From the NCBI GenBank assembly GCA_030682495.1, contig JAUXOC010000063.1, forward strand, positions 1 through 43,048: DNA of 43,048 bases. The letters run 5' to 3'. The notes below the pieces were generated by a model. The model had not been told where the DNA came from. It made no database searches and worked only from the letters and a program-made list of their open reading frames with translations. Numbering within the stretch: position 1 is the first letter of the stretch; the number at the start of each line of letters is the position of its first letter. Below, piece by piece: positions 5,203-8,496 of the stretch. Both the position numbers and the translations under genes were made by a program. The stretch comes from Alphaproteobacteria bacterium (GTDB lineage Bacteria; Pseudomonadota; Alphaproteobacteria; Micavibrionales; UBA2020).

Positions 5203-6303
5203 ATGAAAAAAGTACTTCTCGCAGGTACGGCTATCGTAGGCGCTGCTTTCTTTGCAGCTCCCGCTCAAGCCGAACTGAAGCTCGGCCTCGGCGGCCATTT
5301 CTCTGGCTACGCCGTATACGTTGACGAAGATGAAGTTGCTGGCGCTGGCCAAGACAACTTCTTCTTCCGCCGCAACACCGAAATCCACTTCACCGGCGAA
5401 ACCACGCTGGACAACGGCCTGACCGTTGGTGTGCACGTTGAACAAGAAATCGAAAACGTCAACGTCAACAACGAATCCTACGCCTACTTCTCCGGCGGCT
5501 GGGGCCGCGTTAACTTCGGTAACGAAGATGGCGCTGCTTACCTGCTCCAAGTTGCTGCTCCTTCTGCTGACAGCAACGTAGACGGTCTGCGCTCCACGAT
5601 CCAGGGCTTCACCTATGATGGTGGTGTTTCTATTGCGACCAACACGTCGCTCGATTATGCACACTCGCATTTCGGCAACGGTCCGACCGACACGACGACC
5701 GCTCCGTCTGATCGCCTGACCTACCTGACGCCGAAATTCAACGGCTTCCAGGCTGGCGCTTCCTACGCTCCCCGCGCTGAACTCGCAACGGGCGTTCTGA
5801 ACGGTGCTCCGGTTGCGTTCGAAGACCTGTGGGAAGTTGCTGTTCGCTGGGATGGCCAGTTCGAAGGCGTTGGCATCAGCGTTGGCGCTGGTTACAGCAC
5901 CTCTGATAACGTTGCTGGCGGTGCTGGCGCTGCTGAGCCGGAAGGCTGGAACGTTGGTTTCAACCTCGCTTGGAACCAGTTCTCCTTCGGCGCAGTCTGG
6001 CTGGATGAAGAAGATCGCTACGGCACGGCTGGCGTTGACACCAAAACCTGGGTTGTCGGCGCTGCTTGGGATAACGGTCCTTGGCATGTTGGCGCGTCCT
6101 ACCTGGATCGTGAAGACGATACCAACGGTGGCACGTCTGAAGACAGCTACAAAGCAACCATCGGTGGCGGCTATGCTTTCGGCCCCGGCATGACTTTCCG
6201 CGGCGCGATCGCGTTCGGCGAAGCTGCTAACGGCGCTTCCGGTAACGCAAGCAACGAAGGCGACTTCACACAAGTCACCATCGGTACCGACATCCGCTTC
6301 TAA
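5203..6303 (+). CDS. Outer-membrane porin
   Basis: General diffusion-type porin forming a beta-barrel channel in the outer membrane. The 366-residue product starts with a clear Sec signal peptide (MKKVLLAGTAIVGAAFFAAPAQA, shown here in part as MKKVLLAG and APAQA) cleaved before ELKLGLGGHFSGY. The body has alternating aromatic and polar strands, including a segment with VNFGNEDGAAYL typical of Gram-negative porins, and it ends in DIRF with the terminal Phe used for barrel assembly. The ATG at 5203 is chosen over an in-frame upstream extension because GGAGG lies 7-12 bases upstream and the signal peptide begins there. Ala is mostly GCT here, while neighbours use GCC and GCG, which suggests a highly expressed gene. 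A strong terminator follows. Confidence 0.92.
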   Translation: MKKVLLAGTAIVGAAFFAAPAQAELKLGLGGHFSGYAVYVDEDEVAGAGQDNFFFRRNTEIHFTGETTLDNGLTVGVHVEQEIENVNVNNESYAYFSGGWGRVNFGNEDGAAYLLQVAAPSADSNVDGLRSTIQGFTYDGGVSIATNTSLDYAHSHFGNGPTDTTTAPSDRLTYLTPKFNGFQAGASYAPRAELATGVLNGAPVAFEDLWEVAVRWDGQFEGVGISVGAGYSTSDNVAGGAGAAEPEGWNVGFNLAWNQFSFGAVWLDEEDRYGTAGVDTKTWVVGAAWDNGPWHVGASYLDREDDTNGGTSEDSYKATIGGGYAFGPGMTFRGAIAFGEAANGASGNASNEGDFTQVTIGTDIRF

Positions 6304-6350
6304 TGATATGCAGGGTTAAACCTGCTCTATCATCAGAAAAAGATAAAGAG

Positions 6351-6383
6351 GGGCGGCCCCACAAGGGCCGCCCTTTCTTTTTT
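6351..6383 (+). terminator. Rho-independent terminator of the porin gene
   Basis: A 9-bp perfect GC stem (GGGCGGCCC at 6351-6359 and GGGCCGCCC at 6365-6373) with a 5-base loop is followed by a T-rich run with one C. It lies 48 bases after the porin stop codon. Confidence 0.93.
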
Positions 6384-6466
6384 GCCCCGCACACACGATC
6401 CGCGCCGCCGCGCCAGTGTTCCGGCGCAGGCCGCCACTTCCAAATTTTCTGCGTTATAAAACTTAA

Positions 6467-6558
6467 GACGATTATCCCCTTGAAGTACGTACCTCGTCAT
6501 ACCGGCTTGCGCCGGTATGACAAAAAGGAGGGATACGTGCTTCAAGGGGATAATCACC
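6467..6558. mobile_element. MITE-like 92-bp element with terminal inverted repeats
   Basis: Non-coding element with long terminal inverted repeats. The arms at 6470-6491 and 6534-6555 match at 21 of 22 positions when one is reverse-complemented. The interior holds a second perfect palindrome at 6496-6521 (GTCATACCGGC, four bases, GCCGGTATGAC). The 8-base sequence AAACTTAA occurs on both sides (6459-6466 and 6559-6566) in direct orientation, three bases outside each strong arm, as a target-site duplication would. It has no coding capacity. That this is a transposed miniature element is an inference from structure; the direct repeats are AT-rich and could be chance. Confidence 0.6.
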
Positions 6559-6579
6559 AAACTTAATATCTTGACCGTC

Positions 6580-6600
6580 ACCCCCGCCTTGCGCGGGGGT
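6580..6600. repeat. Short palindromic repeat
   Basis: Inverted repeat ACCCCCGC / GCGGGGGT with a 5-base loop, flanked by CGTC on the left and CTGG on the right. These asymmetric ends (GTCA to CTGG) match the palindromes at 7548 and 7661, so it appears to be one member of a dispersed family. Confidence 0.7.
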
Positions 6601-6654
6601 CTGGTCTGCGGCAAAAGCGCATCCTCTATAAAAATCCAGCGCCGCCGCGTCCGG

Positions 6655-6675
6655 ATGCCCGCGTAAAGCGGGCAT
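6655..6675. repeat. Short palindromic repeat, reverse orientation
   Basis: Inverted repeat ATGCCCGC / GCGGGCAT with a GTAAA loop, preceded by CCGG and followed by GACAG. It has the same layout as the neighbouring palindromes but points the other way. Confidence 0.7.
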
Positions 6676-6717
6676 GACAGCTATGTTTCTAGGTCGAGAC
6701 ACAACCGCCTAAAGGTC

Positions 6718-6745
6718 TTGACGTTTTTTCCCTTTGCTCTAATTT
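6718..6745 (+). promoter_or_regulatory. Promoter of the 6775 outer-membrane gene
   Basis: TTGACG at 6718-6723, a 16-base spacer and TAATTT at 6740-6745. It lies just upstream of the chosen start codon at 6775, giving a leader of about 20-25 bases. It also argues against using the TTG at 6718 as a start codon, since that TTG is then part of the -35 box. Confidence 0.55.
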
Positions 6746-6774
6746 CACCGGACGCAAAAAAGAAAGAAAACGCT

Positions 6775-7530
6775 TTGCATAAAATAACGTCCCGCACCCA
6801 GACAAATAGCGCCGCCACAGCTTTGCTGGCCGCGCTCTTTCTTTTTACGCCGGATGCGCGCGCCAATACAGGCTCCGCCGTGGGCGGGCCGAATGTCGAT
6901 GCAGGCAAGACAGCCATCGAATGGCGGTTGGCCGCATCCGAAGACGACAATGCCAGCCAAGACAAACGCGTACGTACGCGCGTACACATAGACCACGGTT
7001 TTTCAGGCCTTTACGCCGCACGTCTGGTTTATAATCTGGACCGGCGCAAAGGCGATAGCCTTGAATTTGACGGGCTCAGCTTTCAAAACCGCTTTCATAT
7101 TCTCAAAGCCAAAGACCACGGTTTCGATGGCGGCATCCGCCTGAATTATACTTTTGCCGATGGCGACAAAAAACCCGACGTCTTGTCGCTGCGCTTTTAC
7201 CAGCGTATCCCGCAGGACGCGTGGGAGCTGCGGTTCAACCAGATTTTTGAATCCGAAATCGGTGAAGACCGTGATGGCGGGGTGATCGCCGAATGGCGTA
7301 CGCAGGTGACCTATGGCGTGACAGACGATCTGCGCCTCGGCCTCGATTTCTTCCACGACTTCGGCAATCTTGAAGAACAATCAGGTTATAGCGGCCACGA
7401 ACATGCCGCCGGCCCCGTCCTCAAAGCCAGGTTCGGCGGCGGCTACAGCATCGAAGCCGCCTACCGCATCGGCCTGTCCGACGCCGCCCCCGACCAGTCC
7501 GGCACCTTCATTCTGACCCGCGGCTGGTAG
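6775..7530 (+). CDS. Predicted outer-membrane beta-barrel protein, unknown function
   Basis: Secreted protein of 251 residues that looks like a small outer-membrane barrel; I do not recognise a named family. From the TTG at 6775 it has a basic start (HKITSR), a hydrophobic run (ATALLAALFLF) and a likely signal cleavage after PDARA. The mature part alternates short amphipathic strands rich in Tyr, Phe and Arg (ARLVYNLDRR, LSLRFYQRI, WELRFNQIF) and ends in LTRGW, with a terminal aromatic residue as in barrel proteins. A longer frame from the TTG at 6718 is open, but that TTG fits a -35 box. The ribosome-binding site is weak (AGAAAGAAAA). Palindromic repeats flank the gene on both sides. The layout resembles small uncharacterised alphaproteobacterial surface proteins. 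Confidence 0.65.
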   Translation: MHKITSRTQTNSAATALLAALFLFTPDARANTGSAVGGPNVDAGKTAIEWRLAASEDDNASQDKRVRTRVHIDHGFSGLYAARLVYNLDRRKGDSLEFDGLSFQNRFHILKAKDHGFDGGIRLNYTFADGDKKPDVLSLRFYQRIPQDAWELRFNQIFESEIGEDRDGGVIAEWRTQVTYGVTDDLRLGLDFFHDFGNLEEQSGYSGHEHAAGPVLKARFGGGYSIEAAYRIGLSDAAPDQSGTFILTRGW

Positions 7531-7547
7531 CGGATTTCCTCGATTCC

Positions 7548-7687
7548 GTCATACCGGCGCAGGCCGGTATCCAGCGCGCGAAGCGCAATACATCCAGCGC
7601 GCGGAGCGCAATACATAACGTGCGTAGTATGCCTATTATACATCGGCCTTCCGGCCTTGACTGGATACCGGCCTGCGCCGGTATGAC
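7548..7687. repeat. Perfect 27-bp inverted repeat pair
   Basis: The 27 bases at 7548-7574 are the exact reverse complement of 7661-7687. Each copy is itself a palindrome around ACCGG, with GTCAT at its outer end and ATCCAG at its inner end, so the two face each other across 86 bases. Transcribed, the pair could fold as one long hairpin or as two small ones. It lies between the 6775 gene and the 7792 gene. Confidence 0.85.
7569..7614. repeat. Two tandem copies of a 23-bp unit
   Basis: Units at 7569-7591 and 7592-7614 differ at one base of 23 and begin ATCCAGCGCGCG. The first unit overlaps the end of the left palindrome, so the tandem probably arose by local duplication of the repeat edge. Confidence 0.8.
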
Positions 7688-7791
7688 AGATGGGGGTGTT
7701 TCATTCGAAGGAAGCGACGCAAGGCGCGGTATTTTGACTTTGCCGCCGATATTTCTCTATAATCGCGGCTGGGTTTCCAAAGGGGCGCGGC

Positions 7792-8496
7792 ATGCATCTG
7801 AAATATATTTCCATCACCGGCGCGGATGATGCGGTGGATCCGGCGGATCTTCTGGCTTTGTCGCGCGAATTTCCGGCGGCTGAATGGGCGATCTTGCTTC
7901 TGCCCGAGCGCGCGGGCACGCCGCGCTTTCCCAAGCTAGAGTGGATCAAATCTTTTGCCGCACAGGCGGCAGGTTTGAATACCGCCATGCATCTCTGCGG
8001 CAGCGCGCTGCTTGGCTTTATCAAGGGCGACGACGATATTTTCGCCGCCATGCAGGGGTTTTCGCGTATCCAGCTCAACCTCAAATTCGGTGACGTCGAA
8101 GGCGCATACGACCCCGCCGCGCTGCTGAAACGCGTGGCCGATAACCCGCGCTGGCAGTTCATCATCCAATACGCCAAGGACAAACAGGGGCTGTTGCCGC
8201 TGCTCAAGGACATTCCCAACCATGCCGTACTGTTTGACGAATCCGCCGGACGCGGCATTTCGCCGGACAGCTGGGATGCGCCGCTCGCCGGTCATTTTTG
8301 CGGCTATGCGGGCGGGCTCAGGCCGGACAACGTGGCGCAAAATCTCGACATTATCGCCAAAGTGGCGGCAGGGCATGAAACATGGATCGATATGGAAACC
8401 GGCGTGCGCAGCGACGATGTTTTCGACCTCGCCAAAGTGCGCCGCGTCCTTGAAATCGCCATCCCCTATACAGCTTTGGCGCGCGCCGCGGGCTAA
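7792..8496 (+). CDS. TrpF-like TIM-barrel protein
   Basis: Cytoplasmic protein of 234 residues resembling phosphoribosylanthranilate isomerase (TrpF). Eight likely beta strands follow in order: KYISITG, WAILLLP, TAMHLCG, RIQLNL, FIIQY, VLFDES, GYAGGL and WIDMETG. The later strands carry TrpF-like motifs: FDESAGRG with Asp149, GGLRPDNV for phosphate binding, and IDMETGVR in place of the usual VSSGVE. However, the position of the catalytic Cys (KICG in TrpF) reads SITG, with Thr9. It is therefore probably not a standard isomerase and may act on another sugar phosphate. The ATG at 7792 follows AAAGGGG by a few bases. It is followed by a separate thiolase gene, and no other tryptophan gene is nearby. 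Confidence 0.6.
   Translation: MHLKYISITGADDAVDPADLLALSREFPAAEWAILLLPERAGTPRFPKLEWIKSFAAQAAGLNTAMHLCGSALLGFIKGDDDIFAAMQGFSRIQLNLKFGDVEGAYDPAALLKRVADNPRWQFIIQYAKDKQGLLPLLKDIPNHAVLFDESAGRGISPDSWDAPLAGHFCGYAGGLRPDNVAQNLDIIAKVAAGHETWIDMETGVRSDDVFDLAKVRRVLEIAIPYTALARAAG

Follow-up and report, generated by a model that had tools for sequence, protein, structure and literature searches.

The locus described here raises the question of whether a short non-coding unit between a porin gene and its downstream neighbor arrived by transposition, and if so what moved and what has happened to it since. The unit lies in a window of 43,048 nucleotides, which is contig C86 of a 2.52-Mb draft genome (109 contigs, 99% complete; G000 below) of an alphaproteobacterium of the order Micavibrionales. 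The 92-bp unit occupies positions 6467-6558 and is bounded by terminal inverted repeats (TIRs) of about 26 bp. The left 8-bp direct repeat AAACTTAA (6459-6466, plus strand) is flush with the left tip and is followed by the S arm (GACGATTATCCCCTTGAAGTACGTAC, 6467-6492, plus strand), a 3-bp spacer CTC (6493-6495), a 26-bp core palindrome (6496-6521), an asymmetric spacer of 11 bp, AAAAAGGAGGG, by which the L side is recognized (6522-6532), the L arm (reverse complement GGTGATTATCCCCTTGAAGCACGTAT, 6533-6558, minus strand), and the right repeat AAACTTAA (6559-6566, plus strand), again flush.

The original prediction described a 92-bp non-coding unit with terminal arms matching at 21 of 22 positions, and the inverted-repeat comparison of 6470-6491 with 6534-6555 bears this out (21/22 equal). 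The arms are real, but the extent given to them was too short, as the terminal repeats run past the 22-bp block to GRYGATTATCC and reach about 26 bp each, with three differences in the first 24 positions. The second perfect palindrome said to lie inside the unit is present as GTCATACCGGC-TTGC-GCCGGTATGAC, and the 8-base direct repeat was likewise found on both sides. In the window AAACTTAA occurs four times (0.61 expected), the two flush copies included; a 16-mer taken from the arm has two matches there at up to three mismatches (0.21 expected), a number reached in 1 of 100 shuffles. The unit is predicted to fold at -62.3 kcal/mol on the plus strand and -58.9 kcal/mol on the minus strand (z of -12.1 and -10.9), and none of 200 shuffles equaled this stability on either strand. 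The open reading frames that cross it (87 and 93 aa) are mechanical and extend past the unit. A search of Rfam with window positions 6300-7800 gave nothing above the gathering score, only sub-threshold matches.

A genome-wide search for the arm, named in the original prediction as its check, with the lack of both a second copy and an empty site in any close relative counting against it, returned 30 matches to the 16-mer at up to two mismatches, and the reversed control pattern returned none. By manual count these fall into 18 loci. The contig-end overlaps C12/C52 and C34/C74 look like the same copies and were counted once each, leaving about 28 of the 30 matches as distinct arms. A nineteenth locus (C11) was found with a longer pattern, decayed copies were detected on C80 and C27 (68 kb), where 0 and 1 of 4000 shuffles were as good, and a further decayed copy on C81 was recognized by eye. 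Over the 15 copies with two ends the unit length ranges from 86 to 186 bp, so that even the longest is too short to encode a transposase. The mean pairwise arm difference within the family is 23%.

Several observations on single copies may be recorded at this point. In L010 (contig C45, 78009-78099) both arms share a three-base change, TTT at arm positions 19-21, a pattern that would fit the copying of one arm from its partner by way of the hairpin. In L119 (contig C3, 402-447) the element is cut in the core and the L arm alone remains, joined to AT-rich sequence absent from the other copies. At least seven contigs (C12, C34, C38, C52, C74, C81, and C109) start or end within or near copies, and the family has therefore probably helped to break the assembly.

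The flanks of the copies bear on how the family spread. The 15 copies with both ends readable were compared; tips were placed by hand in C8, C79, and C37, and the left flank of C12 was taken from C52. Over these copies 100 of 120 positions are equal between the left and right 8-bp flanks, compared to 65.5 ± 4.7 when left and right flanks are re-paired at random, and none of 200,000 re-pairings did as well. Perfect 8-bp duplications are found in six copies (AAACTTAA, TATATTTA, AACGGTTA, TTATTTTA, TAAAAGAA, and AAAATTTA), a number reached in 3 of 200,000 shuffles. A strict set of 11, from which the three hand-placed tips and one joined contig end were removed, gives 72/88 equal positions (0/200,000 shuffles), and removal of the window copy from the strict set gives 64/80 (1/200,000). 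Exact flush repeats occur solely at a length of 8 (6/15, with 0/15 at lengths 4-7 and 9-12). Per-position identity is 10-14 of 15 within the 8 bp and 0/15 at both adjoining outside positions. The duplicated target is AT-rich (106 of 120 positions, compared to 42.6% AT in the window; consensus TAAATTTA). These family-wide flank repeats argue that arms and core inserted as units into AT-rich sites and duplicated 8 bp. Nine of the 15 target-site duplications (TSDs) are imperfect, the worst being C105 (3/8) and C45c (4/8); together with the arm divergence, this suggests that the family is old and probably inactive at present.

An autonomous partner with matching ends is unnecessary for designation as a MITE. 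Elements of this kind have been defined by a size of 70-300 bp and terminal inverted repeats of 15-30 bp (PMC3733652), and the family described here shows the size, the arm length, the lack of its own transposase gene, an 8-bp TSD, and dispersed copies. Its hallmarks are the tip GRYGATTATCCC, the flush AT-rich 8-bp duplication throughout the family, many copies, and a CGTC-type core. The original prediction had also read the unit as a MITE, and the multiple copies, the group-wide 8-bp duplications, and the TIRs all support that reading. The unit very likely represents one copy, 92 bp long, of a DNA transposon that is non-autonomous, a reading that takes in the transposition in trans and the core collapse proposed below. 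The family is a new one of a known kind of element.

The core is a constant part of the family. The GTCATACCGGC palindrome is present at a fixed distance in 30 of 30 arm matches, with no more than one mismatch in ten. The arms are non-equivalent in that the core starts exactly 10 bp past the 16-mer on the S side (16/30 matches) and 17 or 18 bp past it on the L side (14/30). The original prediction left it undecided whether the element had received the repeat or carries it; it carries the repeat, which is no late arrival in the window copy. The core occurs in several classes. The longest, of 96-98 bp, comprises a spacer and two palindromes, and reaches 119-120 bp in a variant in which one of the palindromes is long-looped; a second class has a single long-looped palindrome in 48-49 bp (the C79 core was placed at 48 bp by eye), and a third has 26 bp as in the window. 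Judged by eye, the long core can face either way with respect to the S arm. The usual sequence of a long-core unit is (C/T)GTC-ATACCGGC-GCAG-GCCGGTAT-CCAG. REPs of type CGTC-1 have been defined by a CGTC or TGTC start, an 8-bp stem with AT pairs first and second, a 4-nt loop, and a CCA tail (PMC3733652), and the long-core units agree with this definition.

The fit of the core to a REP superfamily brings in a different mode of movement, in which a tyrosine transposase (RAYT, IS200/IS605-like) would mobilize the unit as a REP/REPIN-type element. The 8-bp stem starting with AT pairs, the 4-nt loop, and the CCA tail of the long forms all fit such an origin. To our knowledge RAYT-type transposition makes no target duplication, but the copies described here have one of 8 bp. 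Additionally, CGTC repeats have been described as not associated with transposase genes (PMC3733652). Movement by a RAYT-type enzyme is consequently regarded as extremely improbable.

Palindrome pairs of the same kind also occur outside the arms. At 7548-7687 of the window there is an armless pair of the GTCATACCGGC repeat, 140 bp in length, with a 23-bp tandem repeat of 2.1 copies inside it (7569-7616). Its flanks are clearly unlike the arms, as 2638 of 4000 shuffles resembled the arms just as closely. Two further dimers of the same genome are less clear-cut, with 316/4000 for C48 and a borderline 56/4000 for C103, which may be a decayed family copy. Similar pairs without arms are present in both genomes of the same genus, G015 and G016, with a length of 96-106 bp in six loci. 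From these two genomes 13 loci were taken, of which 10 had a readable pair and three were dropped; the ten tests of 4000 shuffles each gave no support for arm-like flanks, the best being L198 (88/4000).

Such dimers, with flanks unlike the arms in the window and in both same-genus genomes, would be expected if the arms were a fixed genomic palindrome that serves as a target for insertion of the CGTC-REP dimer and never moved themselves. There is a precedent for this, as CGTC-1 dimers inside 41-bp palindromes have been described as insertions into targets (PMC3733652). Against it, the 8-bp duplications stand outside the arms, which argues that arms and core moved as one unit, and none of the 30 arm matches lacks the core, so no empty target palindrome was found. 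An arrangement of immobile arms is thus very unlikely, and the transposition of arms and core together is preferred.

The long and short cores are related in a simple way. The long core of copy C10, a copy of 163 bp, contains ATACCGGC twice at a distance of 71 bp, and when one ATACCGGC and the intervening stretch (71 bp) are removed the product is the window core exactly (26/26; 163 - 71 = 92). The two same-genus genomes provide orthologous sites with different core lengths. At the first site both flanks align, and a dimer of 106 bp in G015 stands against 26 bp in G016. At the second site the lengths are 26 bp in G015 and 98 bp in G016; alignment is close on the left, and on the right it is regained beyond about 35 poorly aligned bases. 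The long form sits in opposite species at these two sites. L194 and L206 (G015 and G016) differ by the same event as the window copy and C10, and L200 and L202 differ by a similar event. On this comparison of sequences we infer that the window core is a collapsed CGTC-REP dimer and that the change ran from long to short; the missing CCA tail of the window core would then be a result of the collapse.

The reverse direction, in which the family began with a short core and long forms arose as REP dimers were gained within the arms, has some support in the exchange of long and short forms between the species at the two orthologous sites and in the occurrence of long cores in both orientations relative to the arms. 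However, dimers of the same layout outside the family (the six loci with flanks unlike the arms) indicate that the long form exists independently of the arms, the window core is what a simple deletion between direct repeats yields from an actual long core, and a single type of event accounts for both pairs of sister sites. Growth of the core is considered unlikely, and collapse from the long form remains the favored direction.

The upstream neighbor of the unit is a porin gene (PF13609) and the downstream neighbor is a predicted gene on the same strand. A survey of neighbors by longest ORFs covered 13 of the 15 copies, with C74 and C12 (contig starts) left out, and all 13 lie between ORFs: eight between convergent, four between tandem, and one between divergent ORFs. 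The placement holds apart from a mechanical ORF of 93 aa that spans the window copy and, at four other copies, overlaps of no more than 17 bp. REPs have been found mostly between unidirectional and convergent ORFs (PMC3733652). In the intergenic region of the porin locus of G015 and in the non-N part of that of G016 the element was not seen; the flanks align up to about 6410, approximately 50 bp short of the insertion point, and then diverge, and no exact empty site emerged from this comparison.

This placement also touches on a functional origin, in which the unit is a static regulatory hairpin of the porin transcript (a terminator, an mRNA stabilizer, or an anti-terminator) repeated for its usefulness. 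The very stable fold predicted for both strands and the eight of 13 copies between convergent ORFs are consistent with such a hairpin, and so is the agreement of the two arms within an element. Across 13 elements (C27 and C37 excluded) the arms of one element differ by 69 mismatches, compared to 82.1 ± 4.8 when paired between elements, and 148 of 20,000 shuffles were as low. Yet common descent, hairpin-templated repair, or selection on the hairpin could each cause this concordance. A regulatory hairpin leaves the 8-bp direct repeats, which differ from site to site, unexplained, and a terminator-like hairpin for the porin is already present at 6348-6376, ahead of the unit. The TSDs contradict a regulatory hairpin as the source of the repeat, and such an origin is judged highly improbable, but a secondary regulatory role would be compatible with transposition.

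We turn to the enzyme that would have moved the family. G000 has no matches to the profiles of IS1, IS1595, ISL3, IS256, and DDE_Tnp_1 (PF03400, PF12762, PF01610, PF00872, and PF01609), which were matched in 3, 3, 1, 2, and 5 of 17 family genomes, respectively. The profile search covered these five transposase families. A draft assembly can lose insertion sequences that are present in multiple copies. The genome contains 27 GRYGATTATCC sites, of which 18 are in family copies and the other nine fall inside frames of 100 aa or more, taken from stop to stop and not as called genes. No full element with matching ends was found among these sites of the draft assembly, and the complete insertion sequence with matching ends that the original prediction looked to did not appear there. 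The IS1595 copies of G013 and G001 end differently, for example in GGGGCTGTCCTAGC and GGCTCTATATGG, and no arm-like pair was among the inverted repeats listed for the surroundings of the IS1-like proteins in G013, G009, and G017; in G017 the contig ends at that place. Derivation from IS1595, IS1, ISL3, IS256, or DDE_Tnp_1 elements is not supported by the zero transposase matches in G000 or by the different IS1595 ends in relatives.

The arms have no match in the two same-genus genomes, an absence that is not complete because these are drafts of 93 and 79% completeness and G016 has N stretches among its repeats. Arm matches at up to two mismatches occur in 10 of 18 family genomes, 13 of them outside G000, and no core follows the arm-like sequence in the 11 of these 13 that were examined (those in G003 and G009 were left out). 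At up to one mismatch, 3 of 142 genomes of the order have matches, namely G000 and single ones without a core in G011 and G059. An exact scan of wider genome contigs gave 23 single matches in unrelated organisms, with a chance estimate of about 15. Of two plasmid searches for the element, one was without a match and the other gave six weak, chance-like matches.

A tip-like sequence was observed in G013, which belongs to another genus. It contains two copies of a 25-bp near-tip sequence TTTAGGTGATTATCCC[A/T]TTGATGTA with a TTTA flank, at position 2014 of L109 and position 1954 of L110; no second end and no core were found with them. The copy in L109 is 6 bp before the start of one ORF, within a 1.36-kb stretch that includes a HEAT-like ORF of 315 aa (below the Pfam cut-off) and ends at an ABC-ATPase gene.

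The following sequence of events would account for the window copy. A transposase supplied in trans by a putative insertion sequence that has since been lost or is missing from the assembly would have recognized the GRYGATTATCCC tips, bound both arms, and freed the ends. Joining of the freed ends to the two target strands with an 8-bp stagger would have followed, and repair by the host would then have doubled AAACTTAA. The inserting copy or its parent may have been a longer form of about 163 bp with a two-palindrome core, from which slippage or recombination between the two 8-bp stem repeats ATACCGGC would have removed 71 bp and left a single palindrome. Any present effect on the surroundings would probably be exerted through the predicted very stable hairpin, in DNA or RNA, between the porin and the next gene.

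Among described elements, the TIRs and the TSD lengths of NEMIS/Correia, RUP, ERIC, and Nezha, as generally described, differ from those of the family described here. These four are listed as MITEs and share with it a size of 70-300 bp, TIRs of 15-30 bp, a non-coding nature, a frequent position adjoining genes, and a robust secondary structure (PMC3733652). The nearest published architecture among the accounts consulted is that of QMITE2 from Coxiella burnetii, which measures about 190 bp and has TIRs, repeats of 7-9 bp at its flanks, and an inner REP palindrome (PMC5896051); the likeness meant here is one of architecture. The QMITE2 REP is of the GTAG type (PMC10969869), whereas that of the present family is of the CGTC type. 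Smaller copies of QMITE2 resemble bare REPs, without TIRs or discernible direct repeats (PMC5896051), whereas the small copy in the window keeps both ends and the TSD.

CGTC-1 REPs occur in alpha-Proteobacteria including Micavibrio, mostly as dimers, and the core unit described here fits their description (PMC3733652). It differs from them in that the dimer lies inside TIRs with 8-bp TSDs, while the passages of that study on these dimers mention no target duplication. In Halothiobacillus neapolitanus, CGTC-1 dimers are found inside the 41-bp palindromes mentioned above, which were interpreted as targets, and REP-free palindromes were not found (PMC3733652). A CGTC-REP dimer enclosed by palindromic arms is common to both cases, but the arm sequence differs and no flanking duplication is named in that account. 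Among the papers listed in our literature searches, no publication on the arm sequence or on a CGTC-REP MITE with TSDs was recognized.

The most interesting aspect of the family is the CGTC-REP dimer as the core of a transposing unit, although its bearing on how CGTC repeats travel is modest; in other respects this is an ordinary MITE family and probably an inactive one. How CGTC repeats move was left open because no associated or dedicated transposase gene has been linked to them (PMC3733652). We suggest tentatively that CGTC-type REP dimers might spread as passengers within the TIRs of a target-duplicating transposon, in which case the lineage of the window would have caught a genus-wide dimer and spread it, and many copies would then have shrunk by stem slippage. 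If this is true, palindromes around CGTC dimers in other bacteria would be transposon ends and not targets. For some CGTC repeats the family itself shows a concrete route of movement, namely a dimer within a transposing unit that leaves a measurable 8-bp footprint. The family also supplies pairs of long and short forms that illustrate how REP dimers probably collapse into single hairpins.

A different palindrome pair, GTCACCCCCGC...GCGGGCATGAC, occupies 6577-6679 of the window and starts about 10 bp past the right target duplication. Pairs like it are also present at 3775-3878 of contig C51 and on C109.
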